Origin: Polyangium sp. 15x6
GTDB lineage: Bacteria; Myxococcota_A; Polyangia; Polyangiales; Polyangiaceae
Length of the DNA stretch: 64,000 nucleotides
Assembly: GCF_029960785.1 (NCBI RefSeq)
Contig: NZ_JASBQE010000002.1
Location: forward strand, 186,001 to 250,000
Direction of reading: 5' to 3'
Shown here: positions 5,512-22,600 of the stretch, piece by piece
Layout of the letters: each line of letters starts with the position of its first letter
How positions within the stretch are numbered: the stretch's first letter is position 1
Notes under the pieces: model-generated
Databases searched by the model: none
What the model was told of the DNA's origin: nothing
The model's input: the letters and a program-made list of their open reading frames with translations, nothing else
Translations under genes and position numbers: made by a program

Positions 5512-5523
5512 GGGGGTCGTCTT

Positions 5524-6266: not shown

Positions 6267-6267
6267 G

Positions 6268-6299: not shown

Positions 6300-6318
6300 A
6301 TCGCGAAAACCGCCGAAA

Positions 6319-6630: not shown

Positions 6631-7198
6631 CGGACCCCTCCTGCTCGATGTACCTGCAGAGCGTGGCGGCGTATCTCTCGTGCACCTCTCCGCGGACGCG
6701 CTCGATGACCTTGTGATGCGTTCCGATGTATCTGTGGAGCTGGTCGAGGTTCTGCGTCGGAAGCAGGGGCGCGCTCTTCGCGAAGGGGATGGCCCCGATG
6801 CCCGACCCGAAGAGCCCTTCGAGGCTCTTGTCGTACTGCCTCTCCCGGAAGAACGCGTCGAGGAAGAGCCTGTCCTGGGGCGGGAGCCGGACGAACCTCG
6901 CGTGAATCTTCCGGGCCTTGCTCGTGGCCCGGAAGATTTGGTCCTGCGTGCGCTTGCGGTCGAGAGCCGCGACGAGCTGGTCCTCCGCGGACCACCACTC
7001 GTCGATGGGGGCCTTCCGGTTCTTGGGCGTCTCGGGGCCTCCAGCGCCCATCATGTGCCCGATGAAGGCGCCGAAGTTCGAGGAGATGCCCATCTCGCTC
7101 TCGGCCTGCCCATACAGCCAGACCAGATCCTCATGGGCGGCGCGCAGCTCCTTCGGGACGTCGGGCGTCAGAGGTCGTGTCTGGTACGGTAGGCTCAC
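6608..7198 (-). CDS. Phage protein of unknown function
   Basis: This 196-residue protein starts at GTG (7196-7198), which overlaps the stop of the upstream gene in the pattern GTGA. The frame stays open further upstream, but that part antiparallels the previous gene in another frame and is not believed. The protein contains PIDEWWSAEDQLVAALDRKR and ARKIHARFVRLPPQDRLFLD, a helical, charged sequence resembling phage regulators or small DNA-binding proteins. No known motif is visible. It is coupled to both neighbours and likely belongs to the early or middle part of the operon. Confidence 0.6.
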   Translation of the reverse strand: MSLPYQTRPLTPDVPKELRAAHEDLVWLYGQAESEMGISSNFGAFIGHMMGAGGPETPKNRKAPIDEWWSAEDQLVAALDRKRTQDQIFRATSKARKIHARFVRLPPQDRLFLDAFFRERQYDKSLEGLFGSGIGAIPFAKSAPLLPTQNLDQLHRYIGTHHKVIERVRGEVHERYAATLCRYIEQEGSGESASVG

Positions 7199-7674
7199 TT
7201 CACCCTCCCCTCTTCCCTTGCCTGTGCCGCGAGATACCGGATGTACGCCATCCCCTTTGGCGTCGGTGCCTTCTGGCCGCCGACCCACAGCCGCACGGTG
7301 CATTCGTCGGGCGTCAGCTCCTCCCCGTCGTGCTCCAGGAGATGGGCACGGAGCATCATGCCGTCGATCTGATGCTCCCTCGCGAGGTTGTACGCTTCGA
7401 CGGACGCGTCCTCCCCCGTGACGAAGGGGAGCGCGAACGGGAGCAGGAACCAGTTGTGTTCGAGGATTCGACGCCGGATCGACGGGTGCATCCGCTTCGT
7501 GGCGCCCGTGACTCGCCACATGGTCGGCGGGAACCCTGGCGCGAACTTGGCGAGGAACACCGCCTCGGGACGCCTCGCCTTGGCGACGGCGAATTTCCTG
7601 ACCTGGTAATCCCCCTCCATCGTCTGGGGGAACGGGTCGTCGATATGAGCGGGGGCCTTGCTGGCAGACTTCAT
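7195..7674 (-). CDS. Phage protein of unknown function
   Basis: I place the start at the ATG at 7672-7674 (MKSASKAPAHIDDPF, 159 residues). It lies at the edge of a perfect 8-bp hairpin whose 3' arm contains a weak GAG ribosome site and the first two bases of the start codon. The middle, HPSIRRRILEHNWFLLPFALPFVTGED, is hydrophobic but too short and polar to be a certain membrane segment. It is followed by the next gene with a four-base overlap. No family is recognised. Confidence 0.55.
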   Translation of the reverse strand: MKSASKAPAHIDDPFPQTMEGDYQVRKFAVAKARRPEAVFLAKFAPGFPPTMWRVTGATKRMHPSIRRRILEHNWFLLPFALPFVTGEDASVEAYNLAREHQIDGMMLRAHLLEHDGEELTPDECTVRLWVGGQKAPTPKGMAYIRYLAAQAREEGRVK

Positions 7675-7696
7675 GTGCTCTTTACGTAGAGCACAT
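7673..7696 (-). promoter_or_regulatory. Perfect inverted repeat over a phage start codon
   Basis: ATGTGCTC and GAGCACAT are exact inverted arms separated by eight bases that themselves contain the palindrome TACGTA. On the minus strand the 3' arm includes the weak ribosome site and the AT of the start codon at 7674. It could be an RNA hairpin blocking translation initiation or a repressor operator on DNA. Both readings are inferred from symmetry alone. Confidence 0.5.
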
Positions 7697-7706
7697 AATA
7701 GCAACG

Positions 7707-8228
7707 TTATCGCAGCTTTGCGGCGATTGAGCGGGCCTTTTTGCGGCTGGCGTGCAGTTTTTGGCGTACCCGGTTCGCATTCGAGTCCATCTCTCGCGGT
7801 TCTTCCCCTGCCGCACGCTGGAGGAGCATGTCGAAATGCGTGGGACGCATCCGCCTATCGAGTCGTCGAAGGTAGTCCCGGGCTTCCAGCCAGGGAGAAG
7901 GGTCGACCCCAGCAAGCTCCTCGACGTCACGATGCACGAAGAGGGCAGCGTCCCGTTTGGCCTCGCGGGCGAACCAGTAGGCCCGTCTAGCAGCGACGAG
8001 CTTCACCCATGCTCGAAGATGCCCGCGACCCTCCTGGCCGGGAGGGGCACGGATGCGCCCCTCGGCAAACGCTCGCAAGAGGGCGAGGATGACTTCCTGT
8101 CCGAGATCGTCCGCGAAATCACGGGGTACCCCAAGAAGACAAAGCACGACCTTGGCCGCACGCAGGAGCGCCGGCAATTGCCGCTCTATCTCTTTGGGGA
8201 GCCCGGCCTTATCGCCGGGCGGGCTCAC
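7707..8228 (-). CDS. Phage-encoded sigma-70/ECF-like protein
   Basis: The 173-residue product contains DFADDLGQEVILALLRAF, closely resembling sigma-70 region 2 helices that bind RNA polymerase and open the -10 element. Basic segments follow (ARRAYWFAREAKRDA), and the Lys/Arg-rich C-terminus (NRVRQKLHASRKKARSI) could be a region-4-like helix-turn-helix. It is the most upstream gene of the minus-strand phage run and might redirect transcription to phage promoters. I chose the GTG at 8226-8228 (AAGGCGG upstream). A longer frame reaches 8441, but it would run through the strong hairpin at 8318-8349. Start certainty is low; family certainty is moderate. Confidence 0.6.
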   Translation of the reverse strand: MSPPGDKAGLPKEIERQLPALLRAAKVVLCLLGVPRDFADDLGQEVILALLRAFAEGRIRAPPGQEGRGHLRAWVKLVAARRAYWFAREAKRDAALFVHRDVEELAGVDPSPWLEARDYLRRLDRRMRPTHFDMLLQRAAGEEPREMDSNANRVRQKLHASRKKARSIAAKLR

Positions 8229-8317
8229 GTCATCCGCCTTTGGGTGTGGATGTTCGAGAGCGTTCGGGGTAGATCGTTCATCGGCTGATGCTCCGGTTCC
8301 AAGGGGTTGTCGGCCTT

Positions 8318-8354
8318 CCGCCCGGAGAGGGCCTAAGCTCTCCGGGCGGTTTTC
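8318..8354 (+). terminator. Strong intrinsic terminator, plus-strand orientation
   Basis: A perfect 12-bp stem (CCGCCCGGAGAG at 8318-8329 with CTCTCCGGGCGG at 8338-8349) and an eight-base loop are followed by TTTTCGTTT. This is the best intrinsic terminator in the window. No plus-strand protein gene is seen upstream, since the genes there are on the minus strand. It may end an antisense or small RNA, or insulate the integrase from transcription entering from the left. Confidence 0.6.
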
Positions 8355-8417
8355 GTTTGTCCCCGCGTGTGACGAGGACGAACCGGCCAGACTGGATGGG
8401 ATCACCGTCCGATCGTC

Positions 8418-8461
8418 AAGAGTCTTGTTTCCGACCCTCAAAAGTCTTGTCTCCGACCCCC
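8418..8461. repeat. Tandem pair of 22-bp repeats upstream of the integrase
   Basis: Two adjacent copies of AAnAGTCTTGTnTCCGACCC (8418-8439 and 8440-8461) differ at three positions. The first contains the inverted pair CAAGA/TCTTG. They lie in the gap between the divergent sigma-like gene and the integrase, where a phage repressor or excision factor would be expected to bind. Twenty-two bases is about two helical turns, so both copies would face the same side of DNA. The operator role is inferred. Confidence 0.45.
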
Positions 8462-8515
8462 AAGAACGGCAGGATTCACCTCGGAGCGGTCGAGATGGCC
8501 AGGGAGTAGCTGGTC

Positions 8516-9598
8516 ATGACGATTCGCAAGGCAAACCGACGGGGACAACCCGTCCTGATCGTTGACATTCACTACCGGCGCAAAGACGGCTCCCAAGGCC
8601 GCTACCGAAAGGACGCTCATGTCCAGACGATGGCGGGCGCGAGAGCCGAAGAAAGACGTCTCCTCGCGCTCATAGCGACCTATGGCGAGCCCACCGAGCC
8701 CCGTGTCGAGGTCGTCGTGGCACCAGCCCCAGCCATCACCTTCGAGGAGGCCGTGGGCCTGTTCCGCAGCGGCAAGGCCGTCACAAGGCTCAAGCCGAGT
8801 ACGAGGAAGGGCTACGAGGAGATCCTGGAGACGCGCCTCCTCCCACGGTTCGGCGAGACGCCCATCGACAAGCTGACAGGGTCGGACGTCGAAGGGCTCG
8901 ACGCCGTGCTCGTGGACGAGGGGTGCTCCCCCTCGCGACGGCGGAACGTGCTCATCGTCATCCGCTCGGTCCTACGGGCCGCTGTGGAGGCCAAGAAGCT
9001 CTCCGCCCTGCCCGACCTTCCCCCGCTCCCCAAGACGGGCAAGAAGGTTCTCCGCTGCCTCACGGCGGAGCAGGTCGAGGCCATCCTCGGCAAGGCCAAG
9101 GGCGGGGGCCGCGTGGCTCTTGCCCTGGCAGCCTACGCGGGGCTCCGAGCCGGCGAGGTTCGCGCCCTCCGATGGGAGGACGTCGACCTCGACGGCGGCT
9201 TCCTCGTCGTCCGCTTCTCGCACTCGAAGGGTGAAGTCTCGACCCCGAAGTCGGGACACCAGAGAGAGGTCCCACTGGCCGCGAGGCTGGCGGAGCTGCT
9301 GCGAGAGGTCAGAGGCGAGGGCCTGGGGCTCGTGACCGTCTCCTCCCGCAAGGAGGCGTGGGGCGAGTGGGGCCTCACGCAGCTCTTCAAGAGGGCCGCC
9401 AAGAAGGTCGGCATCGTGGGCTTCCGCTTCCACGACCTCCGGCACTTCTTCGTCACCGAGTTGTTCCGGCGAGGCGGGTCGGCTCCGGCCGTCCAAGCCC
9501 TCGCGGGACACGAGCACTTGTCAACGACCTCGCGGTACGCCCACGTCGCGCGGGCCGACCTCCGGGCAACCGTCGGTCTCCTCGCTCGGTCACGGTAA
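8516..9598 (+). CDS. int: Tyrosine-recombinase phage integrase
   Basis: This 360-residue enzyme integrates and excises the prophage at the tRNA-Lys site. An N-terminal AP2-like/arm-binding part (residues 1-60) and a SAM-like core-binding domain (about 72-165) precede the catalytic domain. All catalytic residues are visible: R211 in AGLRAGEVRALRW, H306 and R309 in HDLRH, H332 in AGHEHLS, and nucleophile Y341 in SRYAH, so it should be active. The ATG follows AGGGAG. It is transcribed toward the attachment site, which begins 69 bp after the stop codon, the usual int-att arrangement. Confidence 0.96.
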   Translation: MTIRKANRRGQPVLIVDIHYRRKDGSQGRYRKDAHVQTMAGARAEERRLLALIATYGEPTEPRVEVVVAPAPAITFEEAVGLFRSGKAVTRLKPSTRKGYEEILETRLLPRFGETPIDKLTGSDVEGLDAVLVDEGCSPSRRRNVLIVIRSVLRAAVEAKKLSALPDLPPLPKTGKKVLRCLTAEQVEAILGKAKGGGRVALALAAYAGLRAGEVRALRWEDVDLDGGFLVVRFSHSKGEVSTPKSGHQREVPLAARLAELLREVRGEGLGLVTVSSRKEAWGEWGLTQLFKRAAKKVGIVGFRFHDLRHFFVTELFRRGGSAPAVQALAGHEHLSTTSRYAHVARADLRATVGLLARSR

Positions 9599-9611
9599 CA
9601 GTTCGGTAACA
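9593..9611. repeat. Direct repeats between integrase and attachment site
   Basis: CGGTAACA occurs twice, 11 bp apart (9593-9600 and 9604-9611), overlapping the integrase stop codon and lying about 60 bp from the tRNA fragment. Integrase arm-type sites commonly look like this: short direct repeats about one helical turn apart near the core. The role is inferred. Confidence 0.35.
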
Positions 9612-9667
9612 AGCTCTTGACAAGCGCAAAAAACCCGCAAATTCAGCCGAAAACGCCTCGTACCTCC

Positions 9668-9717
9668 ACGGGCTTTTAACCCGTAGGTCCAGGGTTCGAG
9701 TCCCTGTCGACCCACCA
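9668..9717 (+). other. 3' fragment of tRNA-Lys(TTT): prophage attachment site
   Basis: The anticodon stem-loop (ACGGG, loop CTTTTAA with anticodon TTT at 9675-9677, CCCGT), a variable loop, an intact T-arm (CAGGG/CCCTG around TTCGAGT), the acceptor 3' strand TCGACCC, discriminator A and an encoded CCA are all present. The 5' acceptor strand (GGGTCGA expected) and the D-arm are absent upstream, where integrase-flanking phage DNA lies instead. This is therefore not a working tRNA gene but the 3' duplicate left by integration, that is, the att junction. Host DNA resumes to the right. Confidence 0.85.
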
Positions 9718-9743
9718 CCAATTCCTCAACGATCCCGCTTCGT

Positions 9744-9767
9744 AAGGGCCCTCCTAGGAGGGCCCTT
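9744..9767. terminator. 24-bp perfect palindrome after the tRNA fragment
   Basis: AAGGGCCCTCCT is followed directly by its reverse complement. In the uninterrupted chromosome this would have followed the complete tRNA-Lys gene, so it is probably the tRNA's terminator. It lacks a clear T-run on either side. Confidence 0.45.
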
Positions 9768-9889
9768 CGTCCATCTCCCCCATGCCGTCGCCAGGGCCCT
9801 CGCGGGCCTCGCGTAGGCAACAGGTGACAAACGGACGACGGCCGTCATCACGAAGCCTGACGAGCCTGAGCGCTCCCCTTTCCCCCTGA

Positions 9890-10060
9890 CCATCGGTCCT
9901 GCACAGCGTCGCGCTCGTCGAGGAGAGCGAGCTCGATGCCGTCGTCGAGCGGATGGCCCACATGAGCGCCGACAAACCCGCGCGAATGTACGAGCGGGTG
10001 TCCGCCTCCAGGAACCTGCCCATGGAGAAGCCTCGTCCGCGCAGGAGCCACTGTCCGTAG
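9890..10060 (+). pseudogene. Possible gene remnant in the 0.5-kb gap after the att site
   Basis: The stretch from 9718 to 10226 has no convincing intact gene. Within it, one plus-strand frame of 56 codons (about 9890-10060) has coding-like G/C third positions and reads LVEESELDAVVERMAHMSAD, then a basic tail to a TAG. It has no usable start codon; a TGA lies just before it. This looks like the 3' end of a host gene whose front is lost. The parent family is not recognised. Confidence 0.3.
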
Positions 10061-10226
10061 CCAACGGTTTGTCCGCTCTTGCGGTTTGGCGCGGAACATG
10101 CGACCACGGTCGCGATGTCCTCCGTGCGTCCGCCTCCCCCGCGGACGAACGACGCCGCGAAGGGCATCCGGCATCGCTCTTGGTTCCCGCACCGCGCTGG
10201 GCCGAAGCTTCGCGAGAAGGACTGCA

Positions 10227-11186
10227 ATGAGTGAGTATCAGTATTATGAATTTCAAGCCATCGACAGGTCTCTCACCGAAAAGGAGATGGCCGAGCTCCG
10301 TTCGTACTCGACGCGCGCCAGCATCACGCCGACGAGCTTCGTCAACCATTACGAGTGGGGCAACTTCAAGGGCGACGAGGACGCGTGGATGTTCCGCTAT
10401 TTCGACGCGTTCCTGTATCTCGCGAACTGGGGCACGCACGTGTTCAAAGTACGCCTGCCTTCGCAGTTCCTCGACCTCGCCGATGTGCGTCCGTATTGCT
10501 CGAGAAACAGCCTGACGGCGCGCAAGAGCAAAGACCAGATCGTCCTCACCTTCACCTCGCAGGACGACGAGGGAGAAGATTGGGACAGCGGCGAGGGTAT
10601 TCTATCTTCTCTCATCACGATTCGCGCGGAGCTCGCCCGCGGCGATCGGAGGGCGCTCTACCTCGGCTGGCTGCTCGCCGTGCAAGCCGACGAGCTCGAC
10701 GACGACGAGCCGGAGCCGCCCGCGCCGCCAGGGCTTGGGCAGCTCAGCGCTTCGCTCGAGGCGTTGGTCGAGTTCCTGCGTATCGACCCGGATCTGCTTC
10801 GTGCTGCCGCGGAACCGAGCCTGACGGCCCCGCAACGGCGAACCATCGGCGAGATTCGCCGCATCGCCGAGAGGCACGCCGCGGAGCGAAGGCAGAACGC
10901 CGAACGAAAAGCGGCTGCCGAGGCGCTCCGAAAGCAGCGACAAGCGGCACGCAGGCGGGCGAAGCATCTGGATGCGCTCGTCGGCAAGGAAAAGAAGCTC
11001 TGGTTGGAGGTCGAGACGCTCGTCGCTGGCAAGAACTACGTTGCAGCGGTGGAGGTCCTCGTGGACCTGCGTGATCTTGCCGCAAGATCGGGAGCGGGCA
11101 ACTTCGAAACGTTGCTGCAGTCTTTTCGGAACCGGCATGCGCGCAAGGCAATACTCATGGCTCGGATCTCCAAGGCCGGCCTGTAG
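10227..11186 (+). CDS. Conserved hypothetical protein with basic coiled coil
   Basis: This 319-residue protein begins MSEYQYYEFQAIDRSL with AGAAGGA upstream; an in-frame start 47 codons earlier has no support. Residues 1-150 contain ITPTSFVNHYEWGNFKGD and FDAFLYLANWGTH, a conserved-looking globular domain that I have seen in unannotated bacterial proteins but cannot name. Residues about 200-245 are a strongly basic Ala/Arg/Glu-rich coiled coil (AERRQNAERKAAAEALRKQR), and the C-terminus is helical. It stands alone between the phage scar and the helicase fusion. It might be a cargo or neighbourhood gene, but no function should be assigned. Confidence 0.75.
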   Translation: MSEYQYYEFQAIDRSLTEKEMAELRSYSTRASITPTSFVNHYEWGNFKGDEDAWMFRYFDAFLYLANWGTHVFKVRLPSQFLDLADVRPYCSRNSLTARKSKDQIVLTFTSQDDEGEDWDSGEGILSSLITIRAELARGDRRALYLGWLLAVQADELDDDEPEPPAPPGLGQLSASLEALVEFLRIDPDLLRAAAEPSLTAPQRRTIGEIRRIAERHAAERRQNAERKAAAEALRKQRQAARRRAKHLDALVGKEKKLWLEVETLVAGKNYVAAVEVLVDLRDLAARSGAGNFETLLQSFRNRHARKAILMARISKAGL

Positions 11187-11437
11187 AGCGTGGTTCTTCG
11201 GCTCCCTGCCTGCGTGCGACGAGGGTTCCTCGGTTCGCCCGTTGTGGCAGCATCATTCGCTACGCAGCGTCCTGGTGGTCTTGTATTTCTGGCTTCCCAG
11301 GACGGAGCGGTACGCTGCATGCATGAACCCAAACGAACTCCTACTTTGGCAGGTACGAGTATCCGACGCGTGAGCCACGAGGCTCGGAAGCCAGAACTTC
11401 TCTCCCGCCGTATGTTCGGGTATCCTCCCTCGGCCCC

Positions 11438-14400
11438 GTGTCCTCCTCTCCCTTCCTCCGAATCCCCTCCTCGTCCTGGCTCGCGAGCAACCCCCTCGCC
11501 TTCGCGGTCCCCGACCTCTACCCGGTGAGCCGCGGCCATACCCTCGTCATCCCGCGCCGGCTCATTGCAACCTGGTTCGAGGCGACCGCCGAGGAACGCG
11601 TGGCCATCTTCGACCTCGTCGACGACGTCAAGCGCAAGCTCGACGCGGAGCTACATCCGGATGGTTACAACATCGGCATCAATGCGGGCGAGGCCGCAGG
11701 CCAGACCGTCATGCACCTGCACGTGCACGTCATTCCGCGGTATCGCGGCGACATCGACGATCCACGTGGCGGTGTGCGGCACGTCATCCCGGGCAAAGGC
11801 AACTATCTCGAAAACCGGCCACCTCCCCTCGCCGAGGGCGGCAAGGTCGATCCTTTTCTGTTGCACCTCGACCCCCTCTTTCGCCGCGCGACCGACATCG
11901 CCATTCTCGCTGCCTTCGTCCAGCAAAGCGGCGTCAGCCTGCTTCAGGCCCACGTCGCTGGCGCACTCTCTCGCGGCGCACGCGTCCGCGTCGTCACGGG
12001 CGATTACCTCAACATCACCCAGAGCGAGGCCCTGGCGAAGCTCCGCGACTGGATGGATGCCTGGGAGGCGCGCATCGCTCCCGATGGCTCGTCCCCCGGG
12101 GCCTTCGAGGCTCGTGTCGTCGAGACGGCACGCCTCCCCGAGGGGGTCCGGTCCTTCCACCCCAAGTCCTGGCGATTCGAGGGACCCGATTTCGGAACGG
12201 CGTTCGTCGGCTCGAGCAATCTCTCGCACGCCGCGCTGCACACCGGTGTCGAGTGGAACCTTCGCGTGGACCGCCATCGCGATCGAGCGGCATATCAAGC
12301 GATCCTCGATGCCTACGAGCGATGGTGGACAGCGGCCGTTCCGCTCACGGCCGATTGGATTGCGGACTATACGCGGCGCGCCCGAGAGGCGCCCGTCGTC
12401 GCATTACCTCCCGGCGAGGAAGACGACGAGTCGAAGGCGCCGCCGCTCGAGCCGCATCCCGTCCAGCGGGAAGCCCTGGCGGCCCTCGCGCAATCGCGTG
12501 CCGAGGGGCGCAATCGTGCGCTTTGTGTCCTCGCCACGGGCCTCGGCAAGACGTGGCTCGCGGCGTTCGATGTCACGGCTTTTGCCGAAAAACACGGCAA
12601 CCGCCCCCGCGTCCTTCTTCTCGCCCATCGAGAAGAGCTGCTCCTGCAAGCCGCTGCCACATTTCGTCGGCAGCTGCGGGACGCGCGGGTGCGTTTCGGG
12701 TGGTTCGTCGGTGACCGGAGCGACCTCGGAGGCGACATCCTCTTCGCCTCGGTGCAGAAGCTCTCTCGCCCCGAGCATCTCGCGCGCCTCACGCCCGACG
12801 CTTTCGACTACGTGATCGTCGACGAGGTCCACCACGGCACGGCCCCCAGCTACCGCAGCATCATCGACCGGCTGAACCCCCGCTTTCTCCTCGGACTCAC
12901 GGCCACCCCGGAGCGAGCCGACGGCGCCGACGTGGCGGGGCTCTTCGACGACCACGTCGCCTACCAGGCGGATCTCGGTATCGGTATCCAGAGAAAGCTC
13001 CTCGTGCCCTTCACCTACTTCGGGTTGAAGGACGACACGGATTACGAAAACGTTCCCTTCCGCAATCGCCGCTTCGCTCCCGAAGCTCTGGAGCAGGCCA
13101 TCGACACGGATGCTCGACTCCAGCGGATGTTCCGCGCCTGGCAGGAGCATCCGGGCCAGCGCACGCTCGTCTTCTGCGGATCCATTCGCCACGCCGATCA
13201 TGCCAGCGGGTTCCTCACGAAGCAGGGCATTCGCGCGGCAGCTGTGCATTCGGGCCCGACCTCGGCTGCGCGCGACAGCGCCATTGCAGCGCTGGTCGAC
13301 GGGACGCTCGATGCGCTCTGCACCGTGGATCTCTTCAACGAAGGTATCGACATTCCGACCATCGATCGCGTCGTGATGCTCCGCCCGACGGAGTCACCCG
13401 TCGTGTTCCTCCAGCAGCTCGGTCGCGGGCTCCGGTTCGCAGACGGGAAAACGCGCCTCGTCGTCCTGGATTTCGTGGGCAATCACCGCGTCTTCCTGGA
13501 GCGCGTGCGTACGCTGCTCTCCCTCGGCCCCGAGCCCACGAGCCTGCGTGACTTCCTGGAGAGCAACCAGGCCGCGAGAATGGCGCCCGGGTGTACCATC
13601 GACCTCGAGCTCGAGGCCAAGGATCTGCTTGCGAAACTGCTCCCGCCGCAGGGTGGGAGCCCCGCGGAGCAGGCGTACCGCGATCTTCGCGAGGTCCGCG
13701 GAGAAAGGCCGCTCGCGGGCGAGCTCTACCGCATGGGCTACAGCCTCAAGAGGCTGCGCGACGCCCACGGGGGCTTTTTTGATTTCGTGGCCGCCATGGG
13801 CGACCTCGACGAGATGGAGAAACGTGTCCTCGACGTGGCTGGCGAGTTTCTCCGCGAGCTCGAGATCACCGCCATGAGCAAGTGTTACAAGATGGTGACC
13901 CTGGAGGCATTGCTCGAAGCCGACGCGCTTCGAGACGGCCTCCCCGTCTTCGACCTCGCGCAAAGAAGCCACGCCATCATGGCACGGTCCCCGGAGCTTC
14001 TGCGTGACCTTTCGGGCGTGGCGGATTTTCCCGACGTGCATGCTCCGGACGTGCACCGGTTCGCCACGTACTGGCGGATCAACCCGATCGCCGCATGGAC
14101 GAGCGGGCCAGGGAAGCGATTCTTCGCGCAGGAAGGTGATCGCTTCGTCTCGCGCATCCCCTGCCCTCCCGGCGGCGAAAAGTCGCTTTCGTCGATGGTG
14201 CGTGAGCTCGTCGACTACCGGCTCGCGATGTACCGCGCGAGGCAAACCGAAAACGTCGCCGGCGTGTCGTTCTCGGCGAAGGTCCTCTGGAACAAGCGGG
14301 ACCCCATTCTGAAATTGCCGACGCACAAAGATCGAGAGGAGCTCCCTCGTGGCGAAACGACCGTGCGCCTCCCGGACGGCACCCTGTGGCTCTTCCGCTT

Positions 14401-15697
14401 CATGAAGGAGTATTGCAACGTCGCCCGTCCCGTGGGTTCGCACGGCAACGAGCTGCCCGATCTCCTGCGGCGCTGGTTCGGCCTCGCGGCGGGGCGACCC
14501 GGCACGAACTTCCGCGTTCGTTTCTCTCGTTCTCCCAGTGGACTCTGGGTCGAGCCGGACGAGCCACGCGCCGAAACCGATACCGTTCGGGGCCTCCTCC
14601 TCACGTTCCCGACCCTCCGCGCAGCCGCAGGATCGACGCGGGATCCAATCGCGCTCGCGCCGGAAGGAGAGCAGGTCCGGCTGCCGACGAAGGCGCGTGG
14701 GGAAGGATTGTTCGCCGTGCGCGCAACCGGTGATTCCATGAATGGCGGCAAGGAGCCCATCCGAGACGGGGATTGGCTCGTGATGCGATTCGCACGGAGC
14801 GCGTCCCGCAACGCCATCGAGGGCAAAATCGCACTGGTCGAGGTGCCGGATTCTCATCTCGGCGCGAGTTATCTGGTCAAGCGCATCGTCCGGGATGGCA
14901 AGCGGTGGATCTTGCGCTCGGAGAACCCGGCACACGCTTCGATCGAAGCGGCGGCGGAGATCGTGCCCATTGCCACGCTCGTGGAGGTGGTGAAGCCCGA
15001 GGCGATCGGACCCGAGGTCGGCGCGAACATCGAGGCCCCAAAGCTCGCGGAAGCGTTCGGCCTCCCGGAGCCCCCGCGAACCGGTCGGGTCGACGGGCAT
15101 CTCTTCCTGCTCGTCGAAGAGAAAGGCAGGCTCGTGGCGCCCGACCGGATCCGATTCCCCGGCATCGAGCCGCGGCCCGGCGAAACGGCGTTCGTGCTGA
15201 CGCGAGCGGACGGCACCCAGCCATGGCGTCATGCAGGCGTGGCACGGTTCGTCGAAGACGATGGGGCATGGGCGTGTGGGGGAATCGATCATCCGACGTT
15301 TCGCGCGCTCGGGGAAGGTCGTGAGGCTTCTCGTACGCTACCTCGATCCATCGAGGATCGGGCCCGTCGTCTCGTCGAAGCTCTGCTCCGCGAGAAGGGA
15401 TCCGGATCCATCGTCGAGCGGGACGGGAAGCGACTCCGGCTCGTGGGGCCTGCAAAACGCGGCGGCGTGCGTATCGACGGCGGGCCCGGTGGATTCGAGG
15501 AGCGAACCGTCTCGCTCACGGATATCGGCTGGGTGCTCGTCGCGCTCTCCGAGGTGAACGAGGATCCGCGCCTGCTACAGGAGGAGCTCGTTCACCACGT
15601 ACGATATCTGGAAGGCACACCGAAGGGCTCAACGCGTTACATCGATACGGGCTGGGCCATGCTGCTCGTGAAAGAAGCGTTCGCCGCGAAAGCGTAA
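11438..15697 (+). CDS. HIT-PLD-SF2 helicase fusion with C-terminal LexA/S24-like peptidase
   Basis: This is a 1419-residue multidomain protein. A HIT nucleotide-hydrolase domain (residues about 5-110) carries the triad H93-H95-H97. A phospholipase-D-like nuclease domain (about 140-310) has H241-P-K243 and GSSNLS. A superfamily-2 helicase core (about 335-680) has ATGLGKT at 366-372, DEVHH at 462-466 and LGRGLRF at 661-667. A DUF3427-like region follows. Last is an S24/LexA-type fold with Ser1100 in GDSMNGG and Lys1148 in YLVKRI, the expected Ser-Lys dyad. The start is a GTG. HIT-PLD-helicase-DUF3427 proteins are a known architecture of mostly unproven function; the peptidase-like tail is notable. 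DNA-targeting defence or repair is likely but inferred. Confidence 0.88.
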   Translation: MSSSPFLRIPSSSWLASNPLAFAVPDLYPVSRGHTLVIPRRLIATWFEATAEERVAIFDLVDDVKRKLDAELHPDGYNIGINAGEAAGQTVMHLHVHVIPRYRGDIDDPRGGVRHVIPGKGNYLENRPPPLAEGGKVDPFLLHLDPLFRRATDIAILAAFVQQSGVSLLQAHVAGALSRGARVRVVTGDYLNITQSEALAKLRDWMDAWEARIAPDGSSPGAFEARVVETARLPEGVRSFHPKSWRFEGPDFGTAFVGSSNLSHAALHTGVEWNLRVDRHRDRAAYQAILDAYERWWTAAVPLTADWIADYTRRAREAPVVALPPGEEDDESKAPPLEPHPVQREALAALAQSRAEGRNRALCVLATGLGKTWLAAFDVTAFAEKHGNRPRVLLLAHREELLLQAAATFRRQLRDARVRFGWFVGDRSDLGGDILFASVQKLSRPEHLARLTPDAFDYVIVDEVHHGTAPSYRSIIDRLNPRFLLGLTATPERADGADVAGLFDDHVAYQADLGIGIQRKLLVPFTYFGLKDDTDYENVPFRNRRFAPEALEQAIDTDARLQRMFRAWQEHPGQRTLVFCGSIRHADHASGFLTKQGIRAAAVHSGPTSAARDSAIAALVDGTLDALCTVDLFNEGIDIPTIDRVVMLRPTESPVVFLQQLGRGLRFADGKTRLVVLDFVGNHRVFLERVRTLLSLGPEPTSLRDFLESNQAARMAPGCTIDLELEAKDLLAKLLPPQGGSPAEQAYRDLREVRGERPLAGELYRMGYSLKRLRDAHGGFFDFVAAMGDLDEMEKRVLDVAGEFLRELEITAMSKCYKMVTLEALLEADALRDGLPVFDLAQRSHAIMARSPELLRDLSGVADFPDVHAPDVHRFATYWRINPIAAWTSGPGKRFFAQEGDRFVSRIPCPPGGEKSLSSMVRELVDYRLAMYRARQTENVAGVSFSAKVLWNKRDPILKLPTHKDREELPRGETTVRLPDGTLWLFRFMKEYCNVARPVGSHGNELPDLLRRWFGLAAGRPGTNFRVRFSRSPSGLWVEPDEPRAETDTVRGLLLTFPTLRAAAGSTRDPIALAPEGEQVRLPTKARGEGLFAVRATGDSMNGGKEPIRDGDWLVMRFARSASRNAIEGKIALVEVPDSHLGASYLVKRIVRDGKRWILRSENPAHASIEAAAEIVPIATLVEVVKPEAIGPEVGANIEAPKLAEAFGLPEPPRTGRVDGHLFLLVEEKGRLVAPDRIRFPGIEPRPGETAFVLTRADGTQPWRHAGVARFVEDDGAWACGGIDHPTFRALGEGREASRTLPRSIEDRARRLVEALLREKGSGSIVERDGKRLRLVGPAKRGGVRIDGGPGGFEERTVSLTDIGWVLVALSEVNEDPRLLQEELVHHVRYLEGTPKGSTRYIDTGWAMLLVKEAFAAKA

Positions 15698-15869
15698 TCT
15701 CTCGAGCGTCTCGGGCCAACAAGCACATGATGCTGCCACGCTGGCACTCACCATGACCGGCCCTGACAACATGGCGCCCGCCTCCTCCCTCGGCTCCCTT
15801 CCTCCTTGCTGAAATACGCCGCCTTGGCATCCCATCCCCCGCGGCACGGCGGTTGCAACCACCGAGCGC

Positions 15870-16958
15870 ATGATTGCCAAGGCCCCCGATCGTGTCGATC
15901 AGCTCCAGGGCGTCCTCCTCGGCGCCGCCGTGGGTGATTCGCTCGGTTTGCCGCGGGAGGGCCTATCGCCCCAGCGGGCAGCACGAATGTATGGCTCTCG
16001 CCCGCTCGAGCACCGATTCCTGCTCGGCCGCGGCATGGCCAGCGACGACACGGAGCATGCATGTTTGACCGCGCAGGCGCTCCTCGCGGCGCCCGGGGAA
16101 GAGGACCGCTTCGCGCGAGCGCTCGCGTGGCGCCTGCGGGGCTGGCTCGCCGCAATGCCAGCCGCCGTCGGGTGGGCGACGCTCCGCTCCATCGTCAAAT
16201 TGTGGCTCGGCTTCTCGCCTCACGCGAGCGGAGTCTTTTCGGCGGGTAATGGCCCCGCGATGCGCGCGCCCGTGATCGGAGCATGCCTCGCGGATGACCA
16301 CGAGCGAATCGAAAGAATGATACGTGCATCGACGCGAATGACCCATACGGATCCGCGAGCCGAAGAGGGGGCGCTTGCCATCGCCCTGGCAGCGGCTCAC
16401 GGCGTGCGAGGTGGACCCCTCGGCGTCTCGCCCGGCGCCCTCCTCGACGAAATCGGGCAGCGTACGCGAGGCGAAGAGCTCCGGCGAGCGCTCGATCAAG
16501 TCGGCGAGCACCTCGCGCGCGGCACGACGGCTGCCGAATTCGCGCGAGCTCTCGGTTTTACGCGAGGCGTGAGCGGCTACATGCTCCACACGGTCCCCGC
16601 GGCGCTCTTCTGCTGGCTCTCGAGCCCCGGTGACGTCGAGCGCTCCGTGGAGGAGGTGATTCTGCTCGGCGGCGACGCGGATAGCACGGGCGCCATCGTG
16701 GGAGCGCTCTCCGGGGCCACGGCCGGAGCGAGCGCGATTCCGATCGCGTGGCTCGAGGGGCTCACGGATTTTCCTCGCTCGACGGCGTGGATGATGCAGC
16801 TCGGCGCGCGGCTCGCAGAGAGCTTCGGCGCGACGCGAACCGAAGGAGCGGGCCCCGGTCCGCTACCGCTGTTCTGGCCGGCAATCCCGATCCGGAACAT
16901 GCTTTTTCTAGCCGTGGCGCTCGCGCACGGATTCCGGCGGATGCTGCCGCCTTATTGA
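15870..16958 (+). CDS. ADP-ribosylglycohydrolase family protein
   Basis: This 362-residue protein of the DraG/ARH family removes ADP-ribose from proteins or small targets using two Mg ions. The N-terminal signature is LLGAAVGDSLG, with the first metal-binding motif ASDDTEHA near residue 63. TRMTHTDPRAEEGALA occurs near 153, and the second metal motif LGGDADSTGAIVGALSGA near 268 is complete. The hydrophobic C-terminus (NMLFLAVALAHGF) may be only a buried helix. It lies 172 bp after the helicase fusion on the same strand and may be co-expressed with it. The metal ligands look intact; the substrate is unknown. Confidence 0.9.
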   Translation: MIAKAPDRVDQLQGVLLGAAVGDSLGLPREGLSPQRAARMYGSRPLEHRFLLGRGMASDDTEHACLTAQALLAAPGEEDRFARALAWRLRGWLAAMPAAVGWATLRSIVKLWLGFSPHASGVFSAGNGPAMRAPVIGACLADDHERIERMIRASTRMTHTDPRAEEGALAIALAAAHGVRGGPLGVSPGALLDEIGQRTRGEELRRALDQVGEHLARGTTAAEFARALGFTRGVSGYMLHTVPAALFCWLSSPGDVERSVEEVILLGGDADSTGAIVGALSGATAGASAIPIAWLEGLTDFPRSTAWMMQLGARLAESFGATRTEGAGPGPLPLFWPAIPIRNMLFLAVALAHGFRRMLPPY

Positions 16959-17109
16959 ACCCGCGCCCTGGCAGGGATACGCGCGTAGCCCTGAGCCTCT
17001 GATGGTCCTGAGCATGGGGTACAGACCGGCTACCTGGGTAACAGGGTAGACCGGGAGCCTGGGTGACAGTTAGTTGCCCCACGGTCGACAGGTCTGACGA
17101 GACCTGGGC

Positions 17110-17298
17110 ATGCCCTGGAGGGAGAGCCGTGTCGTGGATGAGCGCATGCGCTTCATCGTGGCCGTCGCCGATGGTGACGAGTCGTTTACAGAGCTTTGTC
17201 GACGCTTCGAGATCAGCCGAAAGACTGGGTACAAGTGGGTCGAGCGATATGAGCAGTTCGGGCCCGCAGGGCTTGAGGACAAACTGTGCAACCGGGGC
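17110..17298 (+). pseudogene. Truncated IS481-type transposase
   Basis: The first 59 codons encode MPWRESRVVDERMRFIVAVA and then the helix-turn-helix ELCRRFEISRKTGYKWVERY, a typical IS481-family N-terminus. The rest of the transposase, including the DDE catalytic domain, is missing. After LEDKL the frame runs straight into the 21-bp repeat array. Upstream, at about 17016-17069, short GGGTNACAG and AGACCGG motifs recur and could be the old element end. No second IS end was found, so this is a dead fragment. Confidence 0.8.
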
Positions 17299-17743
17299 TT
17301 CGATCACGGACTCCACGCGTTCGATCTCGAACTCCACGCCTTCGATCTCGAACTCCACGCCTTCGATCACGGACTCCACGCCTTCGATCTCGAACTCCAC
17401 GCCTTCGATCTCGAACTCCACGCCTTCGATCTCGAACTCCACGCCTTCGATCTCGAACTCCACGCCTTCGATCTCGAACTCCACGCATTCGATCACGGAC
17501 ACCCGCGCCTTCGATCTCGGACTCCACGCGTTCGATCTCGAACTCCACGCCTTCGATCACGGACTCCACGCCTTCGATCACGGACTCCGCGCCTTCGATC
17601 ACGGACTCCACGCGTTCGATCTCGAACTCCGCGCGTTCGATCTCGAACTCCGCGCCTTCGATCACGGACACCTGCGCCTTCGATCACGGACACCCGCGCC
17701 TTCGATCACGGACACCCGCGCCTTCGATCTCGAGGAGCGCGCC
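17299..17743. repeat. Tandem array of twenty-one 21/22-bp units
   Basis: Twenty-one head-to-tail units start TTCGAT and follow two main types, TTCGATCTCGAACTCCACGCC (type 1, here quoted as its parts TTCGATCTCG + AACTCCACGCC) and TTCGATCACG + GACTCCACGCC. Seventeen units are 21 bp. Four (starting at 17488, 17657, 17679, 17701) are 22 bp and change the reading frame. The array is free of stops in several frames of both strands: the plus strand reads as HAFDLEL heptads and the minus strand as FEIEGVE heptads. It lies between the dead transposase and the SIR2 gene. There are no spacers, so it is not CRISPR. Confidence 0.9.
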
Positions 17744-17831
17744 CTGCGTGCTCCCGGCGTGGGGCCACATGGTTGTTCTCTCCGAGCGCCAGATCCTCTA
17801 GGCTGAAATCTTACACACTTTGGGAGGCGCC

Positions 17832-19682
17832 ATGGTCATCCCGCTCGATCTGGTCCGCGCTGTACGTGAACATCGCCTCGTCCCCTTCGTGGGCGCGGGC
17901 GTGAGCTCAGGTGTCAAGCGAGGCCTCTTCCCCACGTGGGGCAAGCTCCTCGAGATGATGGCCGCCGAGCTCGAAGCGCAGGCGAACCACGCCGAGGGCC
18001 AGGAAGTCCGCCGCCTCATGAAAGCCGAGGACTACCTCGGCGCGGCGGAGCGCGGGCTGCGGCATCTCAAAGCCTATCGCTTCAACCGCTTCTTGCGCGG
18101 CGTCTTTCGCAAGCGGCGGCCTGCCGACCTCGATCTCTCCGTCGTCGAGGCGCTCTGGAGCCTGCGTCCGCCCCTCGTGATCACCACGAACTACGACGAC
18201 GTCCTGCGCTGGGCCGGTCCCGCGGACGCGGAGATGCTGGGGAACGACCAGGAAGACGAGCTCGCGCTGCTCCCGGAGGCGAGCGCCGAGTGGCCTTTCG
18301 TCTGGCATCTGCACGGGACCATCCAGCGCCTCTCGACGCTGATCCTCGCGGGATCGGATTACAAGTCCCTCTATGGCGGCGACGGGGAGCGCGCCCGGAG
18401 GTACGAGGCCGCGCTCTTCCAGCTCAACGCGCAGCTCGCCAATCGCCCCTTCCTGTACGTGGGCTTCAGCCTGAGCGACCCTTACGTGCTCCAGCAGATC
18501 GCCGACGTCCTCAAGATCTCGAAAGGCAAGGGAGCGCCGAGCTTCGCGCTCATGAAGAAGGGCCAAGGCGACGCGTCCGCGCTCTGGTTCAACTACAACA
18601 TCCAGCTCATCGAATACGAGGATCATGGCCCGCCGCTCGCGGCGATGCTCCGGGAGATCAGCCGCCTTTCGTTCGACGCGCAGGCCACTTCGGCGTCGCT
18701 CGTCGCCGAGGGCACGACGAAGCTCGCTCGGGAATCGGCGCCGTTCGTCCCACGTCCTCAGCTCGAGGCCGAGATCACCCGCGCGCTCCGCGGCAGTCGC
18801 AGGCTCCTTTTGCTCGCGCCTCGCAAGGGAGGGGCACGGACGCTCGCGCGCACGATTGCCGAAAAGGAGTTCGGGGAACGCGTGACGTGGCTCCTGCCGC
18901 CCAACGTCCCGAGCTGCACCGAAGCCGAGTATTTCGCGAGCTTGTCGGGTGATCCCTCGGTGAACGGCTTCCTCAAGCTCGAGCAATGGCTCTCGGAGCG
19001 CGCGCGGGCGCTCGGCGGGGAGCACCTCGTCGTGGTGCGGCACGACGGGGGGCCGATCGAGCATTTGATGACCCTCGGCAATGCGCTGCGTCGACTCGTG
19101 GAGAACCCGGGGCGCGGCGTGGGGGCCGCGCGATTCTACGTCCTCGTCGCGGGAGAATCCGCCTGCGCATCGCTACGGCTGGACACGGCGACGCTCTCGC
19201 TCTTTTCGGGCGCGCCCTCGCGGCACGTGCCGCCGCTCTCCGTGGACGAGGTGCGCGCGCTGCTCGGACAACGTGGCGTGGACGTGGGGTTCGCGGAGGG
19301 CGTGCACGCGGCGACGGGGGGTTTGCCCGGGCTCGTGCAGGAGGCGCTCGGGGGGGAAGGGTCGCTCGAGCGCGAGGCGCTGACGCAGAGGCTCGCGCGG
19401 AGCCCGTCGGTGCGCGGCATTTTGCGTACGCGGCTCGCGGAGGATGACCGGGCGAACCGGAGCCCGGCGCGGCATGCGCGCACGGTCCTGCAAAACCTGC
19501 TCGCGGACAAGGGGGCGCGCAGGCTCGACGATACGGACGACGATTTGAAGTATCCGGAGGTGCGCCTCTATTACGACGGGCTCGTGGTGAGCGCGGAGGG
19601 CAGCGGAGAGACGGTCTTCCGGTGCGAGGCGGTGCGGATCGCGGCGGAGCGGACATTCACGCTGGAGCAGGGGGCCGTGTGA
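17832..19682 (+). CDS. SIR2-domain protein with degenerate P-loop ATPase C-terminus
   Basis: This 616-residue protein starts at the ATG with GGGAGG six bases upstream; a TTG four codons earlier is less likely. Residues 10-260 form a SIR2-like NAD-binding domain: FVGAGVSSG (19-27), TTNYDDVL (118-125), WHLHG (158-162, with the likely catalytic His) and GFSLSDP (211-217). Many bacterial proteins of this kind are NAD-degrading antiphage effectors. From about residue 305 an ATPase-like region starts (FVPRPQLEAEITRAL) with LAPRKGGARTLA where Walker A should be; the Gly-Lys-Thr core is altered, so nucleotide hydrolysis is doubtful. Its stop overlaps the start of the WD40 membrane protein, so the two are translated as a pair. 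Confidence 0.9.
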   Translation: MVIPLDLVRAVREHRLVPFVGAGVSSGVKRGLFPTWGKLLEMMAAELEAQANHAEGQEVRRLMKAEDYLGAAERGLRHLKAYRFNRFLRGVFRKRRPADLDLSVVEALWSLRPPLVITTNYDDVLRWAGPADAEMLGNDQEDELALLPEASAEWPFVWHLHGTIQRLSTLILAGSDYKSLYGGDGERARRYEAALFQLNAQLANRPFLYVGFSLSDPYVLQQIADVLKISKGKGAPSFALMKKGQGDASALWFNYNIQLIEYEDHGPPLAAMLREISRLSFDAQATSASLVAEGTTKLARESAPFVPRPQLEAEITRALRGSRRLLLLAPRKGGARTLARTIAEKEFGERVTWLLPPNVPSCTEAEYFASLSGDPSVNGFLKLEQWLSERARALGGEHLVVVRHDGGPIEHLMTLGNALRRLVENPGRGVGAARFYVLVAGESACASLRLDTATLSLFSGAPSRHVPPLSVDEVRALLGQRGVDVGFAEGVHAATGGLPGLVQEALGGEGSLEREALTQRLARSPSVRGILRTRLAEDDRANRSPARHARTVLQNLLADKGARRLDDTDDDLKYPEVRLYYDGLVVSAEGSGETVFRCEAVRIAAERTFTLEQGAV

Positions 19683-22600
19683 GGCGGTGGGGGGCAGCGC
19701 TCGCGATGTGCGCGGCCACGACATGGGGCCACGCGGCGCGGGCGGAGAAGGCGGCCGACGACGCACAGGAGCTCGTGCCCGGCGGCGAGCCGGCGTCGGT
19801 GCTCGAGGGGGTGGATTGGCTGCCCTTCTGGAGCAACAGTGTCGTCGCTTGGAGCCCGGACGGGCGCATGCTGGCGACGGCGCAGGGATTCGACGTCCAC
19901 ACGATCCGTCTGTGGGACCTCGCGACCGGACGAGAAGTGAGGCGCTGGAGCGTGCAGGGCAGCGGCGCCGTCGAGCGGCTGGAATGGAGGCCCGACGGTC
20001 ACACCCTCGTCCTGACGTCGGCCAAGGGGAATGCGATCGCCTGGGACAAGGACACGGGCATGAGCTCGGAAATCGAGGTCCCGGCCCCCAACGTCGCGGC
20101 CGCCGAACGCTTGAAAGACGTCCGCGTCGACGTATCCCTCGATGGGAAGAAGACGACGACCCTCCAGGTGATCGCGTTCGACGGAGGCAACCTGTACGCG
20201 ACGGAGGCTCTGGAGGACAAGACCCTCATCGTCGGCCATGACGACAACGTCGTCCTTCGTTCGATTCCCTCGGTGGGCCAACCCGTTCAGTTCGATCCGA
20301 CGGGCCGTACGATCCTCATTGGCACCACGATCTGGGACATCCCTTCGGGTTCGGTCCAGACCCGGCTGCGCACGAGGCCGCTCGGCGCGGAGCTCGCGTT
20401 CCTCGGAAATGGCGATCGCCTCGCCGTGGGTCAATCCGATGGGACGGTATGGCTCTGGGACATGGACCGGGGCATTCCGACCCGCATCCTCCCCGGGGAT
20501 GGGTATCAGGTCTTCGACATCGAGGATCTCACGCGGTTCGCCAAATGCTCCACGTGCATCGCCGTGAGTTATTACAACGGGGTCATCCGCGTCCTCGACA
20601 CCACGACGGGCCGTGATGTCTTCGAGCCGGTTCGCGGGGATGGGACGTCGCGGCTGCACTTCGAGCCGCGCTCCATGGAGCTCGTGGCGGAGAATGGGTA
20701 CCAGGTGAATGTATGGGCCCCTGGCGCAGCTCCCTCCACGATCGACATGGGCCAGGGTTTCCCGGTGTTCCTCGCCTCTGCGTTGTCCCCACGCGCGCCG
20801 GTCCTCGCGGTCAGGCAGGCGGAATCGGGACACATCACGCTCTGGGGTATCTCCTCGCGCCAGAAAAAGACGACGCTCCTCACGGAAAACTCCGGCTCGG
20901 CGCTGGCCTGGAGCCCTGACGGCCGTACGCTCGAGGTCGGCTACGCCGGGATCTCCCGCATCGAGCGGTGGGACGCGGAGGCGGGCCAGAAGCTCTCGAC
21001 GCTCGAAACGGACGCGCCCGTCGTGGCGCTTGCATTCCACGCAGATGGCCGGCTCCTCGCGGGAGGTTGCCAGAACGGAGCCATCGAAGTCTGGTCCGCC
21101 GCTCCGGGCCCCACGGTATGGAAGGAGCAAGTCCATCGGGCCGCCATCCATTCGATGGCATTCCACCCGACCAAGCACCTCCTTGCGTCGTCCGGGGATG
21201 GCCTTGTCGCCGCACACGACGTGAGCACCGCTCGGTCCGAGAAGCGTATTTTCCTTGGCGGCCCGACCGGGTGGGTCGGCGTGGACGAACGGGGCCTGGT
21301 GCATCGCCGCGATCCCGGCGGATTCGTTCAGCGGCTGGACAAGGACGGCACCTTGCACCCCGTCTTGCCTCCCATGACGGCCCCTTCTTCCCTGAGCATC
21401 AGCCAATGGCAGGTCAAAGGCGAGCCCGGGGACGGCCCCGATGCGATCGGAGAGAAGAGCAGCGCGACCAGCGTCCTCGAGGTCGTCGTCGAGAACAACG
21501 GCGCAGGCCCTGCGTACTGGGTGACACTCGAAATGGTGGACACGCGCAAGGGCCTCATGCTGCTCGATCCGCCGACGATCCCGCGCCTCGAGCCGAGGAC
21601 GTCGGCGACGCTGCACGCGAGAATGTCCTGGAGCGCCCCGAATGCAGGCGAGACGCCATCGGCGCCGATTCGCTTCCACATCAAGGACGCCCTCGGCACG
21701 TCCCTGCCCTTCTCGACGAACGTCAATGTTCGCGCACCGCGCCTCGTGTACGAGGCCCTCGACGTTTCCGGCGACACGGTCCGATTCACCTTGTCGAACG
21801 AGGGGAACCAGATAAGCGGTCCGCTCACCATCGAAGCGTCCTTCATCGACGGCCAAAGAAAGGAATCCGCGCAGCGCCCGGGGGTCCCGAGCATCCCTGG
21901 TGGAGACTCGGTCGAGATCAGCTTCGCCATTCCCACGGGCATGGGGCGAGACCAGCCTTTCACCCTCGAGCTCTCGGCGAAAACCGACGTGGCGAGCCAC
22001 TGGCCCCGTCATCCCCGGCGCACATGGTCGAGCCGATTCGACAATCTCCGCCCTTCCCTCCCCATCGCCCTTTACGGCGCCATCGGCCTCGGCGCCCTCC
22101 TCCTCGCCGCCGCGGTCATGTACGCCCGCATCTACAAGAATCCGCTCGTCGTCCGGGCGACCCTGGAGCCCATGTCTCTCCAGCGGTATCCCCTTGGCGA
22201 GATCGCGAACGTCGACCGCGCGCTCTTGCGCGCCAAGCGCCGCGACCCCGCGCTGACCGCCGCGGGCATCTCCAAGGAGCGCTGGAGAAACGCGATGTTG
22301 GCCGCCCAATCCGGGGACGGCGCGCTCGCGGGCTTCTCCGACGCCGTGGGCGCGGTCCTCGGTGATTGCCTCGACGATCTTCCCGAAAACGTCTCCGCGC
22401 GGACCCTCAAGCTCCCGCCGCTCGTCCTACGTTTCGCCCAGGAGACGGCGCTCGTCGCGATCACGGGCGGCGATCTCGAAGAAGGCGCCACACGCAAGCT
22501 CGCGGCGGCCGTACATCAGGGCGGTCGCGGCCCACGGCAAGCGCTCGCGCTCGATTTCACGAAATCGCAACGCATGGCCGACGCCCTGCGCGAGCTGCCC

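Follow-up and report, generated by a model that had tools for sequence, protein, structure and literature searches.

The S24 peptidase domains of LexA, lambda CI and UmuD are attached to a DNA-binding domain or to a subunit of a polymerase. In LexA-like proteins the cut site is directly flanked by embedded degrons for ClpXP (PMC5742171), and the N-terminal parts of cleaved LexA and CI are handled by ClpX (PMC10584840). Proteolysis also acts on restriction enzymes, as HsdR of the type I enzyme EcoKI is destroyed by ClpXP in restriction alleviation, a brake on the restriction motor that is linked to DNA damage (PMC4231737; PMC12707154). The type IV enzyme SauUSI (PDB 7clg) consists of a PLD nuclease (residues 1-191), an ATPase (221-617), a coupler (618-805) and a reader of the SRA fold (806-953), and recognition of methylated DNA by the reader activates the ATPase (PMC7913695). 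Here we examine a gene within 64,000 nucleotides of Polyangium sp. 15x6 (contig NZ_JASBQE010000002.1, positions 186,001 to 250,000; hereafter the window, whose numbering is used throughout). Sequence comparison and structure models make it very probable that its product is a SauUSI-type motor carrying a catalytically intact S24 domain. The sequence suggests an enzyme that can cut itself in two upon damage to the host DNA.

The window protein has in common with SauUSI the order of PLD nuclease, superfamily 2 (SF2) ATPase, coupler and, in the window protein, a putative SRA-type reader. It differs in possessing HIT, S24 and B3-like domains, which are absent from the domain order described for SauUSI (PMC7913695), and its putative reader has diverged and is followed by one more domain. 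The window family shares with LexA, CI and UmuD the fold, the Ser-Lys pair and, at a distance of 33-40 residues ahead of the Ser, a pair that is either Ala-Gly or Cys-Gly, whereas the S24 domain of the window protein lies in mid-chain, behind approximately 1050 residues of nuclease and motor. Proteins of the HIT-PLD-SF2-DUF3427 type have the same HIT-PLD-motor core with a DUF3427 reader, and one of these (locus L050) gave no match to S24. For EcoKI HsdR, translocation acts as the trigger and no degron could be located (PMC4231737), whereas in the window enzyme a cut site would be built in. Every part of this protein is known already; what we did not meet in the literature searched is a restriction motor into which a LexA-type self-cleaving domain has been built. 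That literature, which did not extend to subscription papers or most preprints and is thus a weak guide to absence, named no S24 domain on any restriction or defence motor, and the words LexA and S24 do not occur in the main text of PMC7159879, PMC12458937, PMC10853773, PMC12839542 or PMC12707154.

A LexA-type peptidase domain in a SauUSI-like enzyme

The initial annotation, made from the sequence alone, had read HIT, PLD, SF2 and S24 domains in a single chain, and all of the motifs it listed lie where it placed them. Pfam matches above cut-off are HIT, ResIII, Helicase_C and Peptidase_S24, the last at residues 1062-1173 (6e-12, 45.7 bits against a cut-off of 23.3). The predicted catalytic residues fall within GDSMNGG (from residue 1098, S1100) and YLVKRI (from 1145, K1148). 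A predicted model of residues 1046-1419, built with 42 sequences (mean predicted local distance difference test score, pLDDT, 90.2; predicted template modelling score, pTM, 0.86), matched lambda CI, LexA and UmuD' with a Foldseek probability of 1.00. Structural comparison of this model by VIA gave Z scores of 14.1 to 11.1 for the 25 best rows, led by 3k2z (Z 14.1, root-mean-square deviation 2.3, 116 residues); the SauUSI chain 7clg was absent among the VIA rows listed. A profile of the domain matched PDB LexA at 5.2e-7. The proposal of a LexA/S24 peptidase fold with a Ser1100-Lys1148 dyad is thereby upheld, and the fold on which it depended is of the peptidase kind by both Foldseek and VIA. 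The same annotation had the chain end in S24; this was mistaken, as about 230 residues follow the domain in both the model and alignment A5. A chance match or dead remnant is ruled out by the LexA profile match, Foldseek, VIA and the conservation described below.

The position of the presumed cut was taken from LexA. Profile position 16 aligned to residue 81 of E. coli LexA (7b5g, E 0.0026; 1jhh, E 0.025), in an alignment spanning LexA residues 81-180. Provided that no gap lies between, this would place Ala1064-Gly1065 on Ala84-Gly85, the LexA cut pair.

Conservation was evaluated in 74 proteins that share a PLD-SF2 core and from which redundant rows had been removed. S24 is matched in 52 of these; the other 22 comprise six neighbouring PLD-SF2 genes without the HIT motif, five fragments or broken frames and 11 relatives lacking S24. 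Of the 52, 47 have every column filled, three are truncated within S24 where a contig ends (L123, L125 and L126; such labels denote individual loci) and two are degenerate copies. Ser and Lys are kept in all 47 filled rows, as the initial proposal of a conserved dyad required, the cut pair is AG in 45 and CG in two, and the distance from Gly to Ser is 33 to 40 residues in the 49 rows that are readable. A wider count, which is redundant in that it includes identical loci taken from two collections, has all columns filled in 87 of 96 S24 rows (AG 79, CG 8, Ser 87, Lys 87). The signature extends through the Myxococcota relatives to metagenome-assembled genomes (MAGs) labelled Planctomycetota and Acidobacteria. 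Such retention of cut site and dyad across deep divergence is predicted by selection for self-cleavage. The degenerate copies differ from one another: L071 has lost the cut pair and carries Asp in place of Ser and Arg in place of Lys, and L144 is without the cut pair and GxSM, with Ser and Lys letters still in the aligned columns. At the sequence level, the joint loss in L071 would count in favor of selection for cleavage. Rows of alignments A2-A5 were chosen as S24-bearing or otherwise well covered.

The N-terminal half places the protein with SauUSI, a kinship that goes beyond the initial annotation, as do the Ala1064-Gly1065 pair and the B3-like and SRA-like domains. SauUSI is the best solved relative (residues 129-712 aligned, 4.3e-75), and mREase_IV is the best PADLOC model (8.4e-93, residues 151-731). 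A PLD nuclease (HxK...N) resides on an SF2 motor, as in SauUSI-like enzymes, and the domain order is that of SauUSI, preceded by HIT and with additional domains after the coupler. The PLD-like HxK at 241-243 that had been reported lies in FHPK (from 240, H241 and K243); the window protein scores 21.1 bits against PLDc_2, whose cut-off is 27, so that this match is sub-threshold, and PLDc_2 is matched in all 27 members of alignment A1 (best 2e-11). HIT is found in 24 of these 27, Peptidase_S24 in 17 and DUF3427 in three, and H241, P242, K243, N261, E272 and K371 are invariant across all rows. The last of these is the Walker lysine of GLGKT (from 368), in agreement with the SF2 helicase core claimed earlier. 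The H93/H95/H97 triad is likewise present (HLHVH, 93-97), which together with the Pfam match establishes membership of the HIT family, and the pattern H.H.H[VIL]IPR occurs in 60 of the 74 non-redundant proteins. The earlier description as a defence or repair machine stands, through this kinship, for defence by restriction, and is refined to a SauUSI-like type IV enzyme. By analogy with SauUSI, the intact enzyme might cleave DNA containing 5-methylcytosine or 5-hydroxymethylcytosine in an ATP-dependent manner.

Sequence comparison and predicted models together demonstrate the domain order, the intact Ser-Lys pair and the Ala-Gly pair in LexA register, and in them the S24 domain is located between the part formed by motor and B3-like domain and the SRA-like reader. 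Self-cleavage by this domain is what its sequence leads us to predict.

S24 domains on other motors

An S24-bearing profile searched against the class matched 76 of 289 genomes, and many of the matches were in short frames resembling free-standing repressors. Of the matches in longer open frames, 20 (529 aa and up) were fetched. S24 was seen in 18 of these proteins and lies behind a motor or ATPase in 13, in all of which AA|G, GxSM and the Lys are present by eye. L180 resembles type I HsdR (HSDR_N, SWI2_SNF2, S24), and L177, L181 and L193 combine ResIII with a PADLOC type III match, the S24 of L193 falling just under the Pfam cut-off. In L185, ResIII is followed by S24 (only ResIII was tested). 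L183 is Druantia-E-like (PADLOC DruE, 4.2e-95), L184 carries Helicase_C, MZB and S24, L196 gave a PDC-S41 match and is presumably DUF2075-like, and L195 is a 529-aa frame with a weak REase_I match. L178, L187, L191 and L194 were classed as motor fusions by eye only. Beyond this phylum, an HsdR of uncultured bacterium RUG11196 (L145) carries T1RH-like_C and, after it, S24, and in Halomonas sp. PA16-9 (L217) an ATPase-like frame precedes, by eye, an S24 frame in a different reading frame. Plasmids were considered as carriers of HsdR-S24 fusions and discounted: when the ends of L145 and L180 that bear S24 were used as tblastn queries, they returned 15 and 5 records, which matched the HsdR-type part or the S24 part, none over 80% of the query. 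That S24 recurs after HsdR and after other motors of restriction or defence fits a shared need.

The remaining five of the 18, large proteins of a different type (L186, L188, L189, L190 and L192), have S24 nearer the N-terminus, with no motor seen and AAAAS or similar where the cut pair is expected; Pfam covered part of one of them (L175, the same gene as L190). L170 (1225-2502) joins an XRE-type helix-turn-helix (HTH) to S24 and a tail that aligns with window residues 1043-1278, and appears as a repressor-like cousin of the S24-reader block of the window enzyme.

Predicted consequences of self-cleavage

What a cut would separate can be judged from relatives. In L040, Pfam places S24 at 1113-1227 and DUF3427 directly behind it at 1239-1382. 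A profile of five DUF3427 tails, four from S24-bearing chains and one (L050) without S24, matched SauUSI 806-950 at 4.8e-10 in an end-to-end alignment with the reader. The order in L040 and this match together imply that a cut would separate motor from reader. The corresponding domain of the window protein is a candidate diverged member of this kind. Its residues 1187-1286 matched the SRA domains of UHRF1 and UHRF2 by VIA (Z 5.7-5.0 over 95-97 residues, the best being UHRF1 at Z 5.7 over 96), and their profile could be aligned over its whole extent to DUF3427 tails from relatives (hhalign, E 6.8e-4, probability only 27%); at E 0.1, Pfam gave no DUF3427 match for the window protein. The reader is shortened in this branch, where, by counting along the alignments, a counterpart of SauUSI Asp858 seems to be retained, whereas none was seen for Trp868.

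We give about an even chance to the S24 domain being an off-switch, by which restriction alleviation is built into the restriction enzyme itself. The intact enzyme would patrol and shred modified foreign DNA as SauUSI does. Filaments of RecA on single-stranded DNA, or long-lived translocation, on the DNA of the host itself would then trigger the S24 domain to cleave the chain after Ala1064, RecA being proposed as trigger by analogy. The cut at 1064/1065 would part the PLD-motor from the reader and leave the motor half with a new end, -Leu-Arg-Ala-Ala-Ala, which resembles the ends of cleaved LexA and which ClpXP could read, and the motor would be destroyed. As the SauUSI reader activates the ATPase, losing the reader should turn the enzyme off. 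ClpXP degrons beside LexA cut sites and the action of ClpXP on HsdR favor this direction over activation. At P2, the penultimate position of the new end, Ala occupies 47 of 47 filled PLD-SF2 rows and, by eye, all 13 further fusions to a motor. For comparison, 20 HTH-S24-like proteins that stand alone were hand-picked from the profile-search list of the class; 12 have Ala at P2, one is ambiguous and seven have Pro, Asp or Gln; with the ambiguous one counted as Ala, 47/47 against 13/20 gives a Fisher value of 8.9e-5, in which kinship is ignored.

Several considerations weigh against this off-switch. Ala at P2 is usual in LexA itself and may mark LexA descent rather than a degron, and the two CG rows of the non-redundant set would end in -Ala-Cys. 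After a cut, the B3-like domain would remain attached to the motor, which it could keep active. The reader region appears shortened, with no Trp868 equivalent seen, so that it is a putative reader of modified DNA. The loss of the cut pair in L144, with Ser and Lys letters kept, and the state of L071 may mean that the function is dispensable in some members. Cleavage and its dependence on RecA and ClpXP are all predictions from sequence, and the LexA-like protein IrvR is reported not to follow the RecA rule (PMC7101444).

Self-cleavage could act in the opposite direction, as the initial annotation had supposed. The S24-SRA-tail part would keep the PLD-motor inactive as a zymogen, and RecA filaments arising from phage damage would induce a cut that frees the motor-nuclease to act through the B3-like domain, perhaps as an abortive defence. 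The conversion of UmuD to UmuD' is a precedent for switching on by self-cleavage. Nuclease, motor and B3-like domain would all remain joined on one side of the cut, which would remove the S24-SRA-tail block as a whole, and S24 lies at or near the chain end in most of the other motor fusions, where its loss would leave a whole motor. This reading conflicts with the activating role of the reader in SauUSI (PMC7913695), whose loss should silence the enzyme, and with the -Ala-Ala end, which predicts destruction of the motor half. We consider activation rather unlikely. The intact peptidase behind the earlier proposal is thus sustained, with switching on as just one of two readings, of which switching off is judged somewhat likelier.

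It is improbable that the S24 domain has a structural role alone, as a fold for dimerisation or for binding DNA or protein in which cleavage is not the function. The S24 domains of CI and LexA do dimerise, and L144 retains Ser and Lys letters without a cut pair. SauUSI also works as a dimer (PMC7913695). Such a role is at odds with the invariance of Ser, Lys and [A/C]G in the 47 filled relatives. A regulatory function, in which a repressor-like S24-SRA block is released to alter transcription or binding of modified DNA and the enzyme serves as sensor, finds a parallel in L170 with its HTH and window-like tail, but L170 is the sole example, Pfam found no HTH in the window protein, and we regard it as highly improbable.

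Returning to the off-switch, we tentatively extend it to a portable form, in which a LexA-type S24 domain has repeatedly been fitted to restriction and defence motors (SauUSI-like type IV, HsdR type I, Res type III-like, Druantia-E-like and DUF2075-like). RecA filaments would lead in each to a self-cut, a ClpXP degron, loss of the motor and alleviation in cis, a generalization that we hold to be possible and somewhat doubtful.

Other features of the gene

Positions of the gene and its domains are collected in Table 1. The coupler is assigned by analogy from the order of SauUSI, and residues 868-940 are largely helical in the predicted model. A model of residues 868-1050 (59 sequences, pLDDT 85.2, pTM 0.59) gave 18 best VIA rows with Z 7.2 to 4.5, followed by a row at 3.7. 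We take these 18 to be plant B3-type domains, the B3 domain of the restriction enzyme UbaLAI and the LlaJI.R1 N-domain. Foldseek returned no significant match for this model, and by sequence the region had no PDB match at E 1. We term the modelled residues 941-1045 B3-like, since a VIA Z under 8 can reflect a common arrangement. The C-terminal domain is missing in some relatives in alignment A5.

Table 1. Features of the gene, with positions in the window
Feature	Residues	Position	Strand	Basis
Whole gene, HIT-PLD-SF2-coupler-B3-S24-SRA-like protein	1-1419	11438..15697	+	GTG start, 1419 aa
HIT domain, HLHVHVIPR triad	15-103	11480..11746	+	Pfam PF01230 1.2e-21
PLD nuclease domain, FHPK at 240-243	151-289	11888..12304	+	PLDc_2 2.9e-4; SauUSI alignment from residue 129
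SF2 motor, Walker A K371, DEVHH at 462	337-687	12446..13498	+	ResIII 2.7e-35, Helicase_C 7.6e-17
Helical coupler region	690-940	13505..14257	+	Placed by SauUSI domain order; model
B3-like DNA-binding domain (predicted)	941-1045	14258..14572	+	Model, VIA
LexA/CI/UmuD-type S24 peptidase domain	1050-1192	14585..15013	+	Pfam, Foldseek, VIA, profile against PDB
Predicted self-cleavage pair	Ala1064-Gly1065	14627..14632	+	E. coli LexA register; [A/C]G in 47/47
Catalytic Ser (predicted)	Ser1100	14735..14737	+	Kept in 47/47 rows with all columns filled
Catalytic Lys (predicted)	Lys1148	14879..14881	+	Kept in 47/47 rows with all columns filled
SRA-like domain	1187-1286	14996..15295	+	VIA, hhalign; candidate diverged relative of DUF3427 / SauUSI reader
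C-terminal domain, no assigned kind	1300-1419	15335..15694	+	Alignment A5, model

Distribution and gene neighbourhood

Residues 690-1419 are matched, at least partly, in 42 of 377 genomes of the phylum. When each species was represented by a single genome, 66 of 172 stretches were confirmed as loci, not all of them with S24. These loci include Polyangium, Sorangium, Minicystis, Myxococcus, Pyxidicoccus, Nannocystis, Enhygromyxa and others, as well as MAGs labelled Planctomycetota, Acidobacteria, Opitutus and Actinobacteria. On a tree of 69 cores built by a quick method, labels for S24 are strongly clustered, with five changes between its presence and absence; five of the 74 proteins were left out, degenerate copies were scored as S24, and the label of L126 is wrong owing to its contig-end cut. 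So few changes imply that S24 seems to have been kept through deep divergence. A few members lacking S24, such as L043 and L128, lie inside or beside the S24 clade. One genome of the same genus contains two full-length copies approximately 18 kb apart (L056, 7837-12279, and L057, 8225-12508), each about 84% identical to the window protein. The window's own genome (G000, 13.4 Mb) encodes a second, shorter PLD-SF2 gene, L002, with 39% identity over residues 151-725, and the C-terminal end of L002 resembles DUF3427 by eye.

The idea of a plasmid or phage gene was weakened by tblastn of residues 880-1190, for which neither the 72,556 plasmid records nor the 50,697 phage records contained a match at E 1e-5; viral_contigs gave five weak matches, to the S24 part. 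A conserved operon partner was likewise discounted from neighbour counts in the surroundings of 53 relatives. The most widespread recurring neighbour is a second PLD-SF2 gene at 7 of the 53 loci (one row being only 256 aa), with DUF3427 in four of four checked. Another family recurs at six loci. Others recur at three to five, chiefly in near relatives (Myxococcus and Pyxidicoccus), where shared gene order is expected. A Myxococcus-type LexA box was set aside: the one match to its pattern in the window, with two mismatches, is at 45503, far from the gene, and 1.5 matches were expected by chance. No RNA family reached the gathering score in 8000-24000.

Upstream of the gene, at 3593-9598, are a phage terminase large subunit (reverse strand, PHROG match) and a tyrosine integrase (forward strand), and this integrated element or remnant ends approximately 1.8 kb before the gene. 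Between this element and the gene, at 10227-11186, a 319-aa protein that gave no hit to Pfam, PADLOC or PHROG within the limits applied is kept directly upstream of L056 in genome G292 (89% over 209 residues) and partly in L084. An ADP-ribosylglycohydrolase (15870-16958; Pfam 4.9e-62) lies directly downstream. Beyond it, a 21-base unit repeated in tandem 20.6 times (17298-17733) is inside a frame that begins, by eye, like a transposase helix-turn-helix. At 17820-23767, a SIR2-domain protein (PADLOC, LmuA/ThsA-like) overlaps a WD40-nSTAND-like frame of 1381 aa, and the two form a second candidate defence pair.

Conclusions

Restriction motors endanger their hosts when DNA is damaged or newly copied, and ClpXP is a known safeguard for type I enzymes. 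If some restriction enzymes do carry a LexA-type cut site of their own, an SOS protease module known from repressors and UmuD would regulate defence enzymes themselves. The link between the SOS response and restriction would then be directly testable by a single residue change, at Ser1100, in what is apparently a single-gene system.

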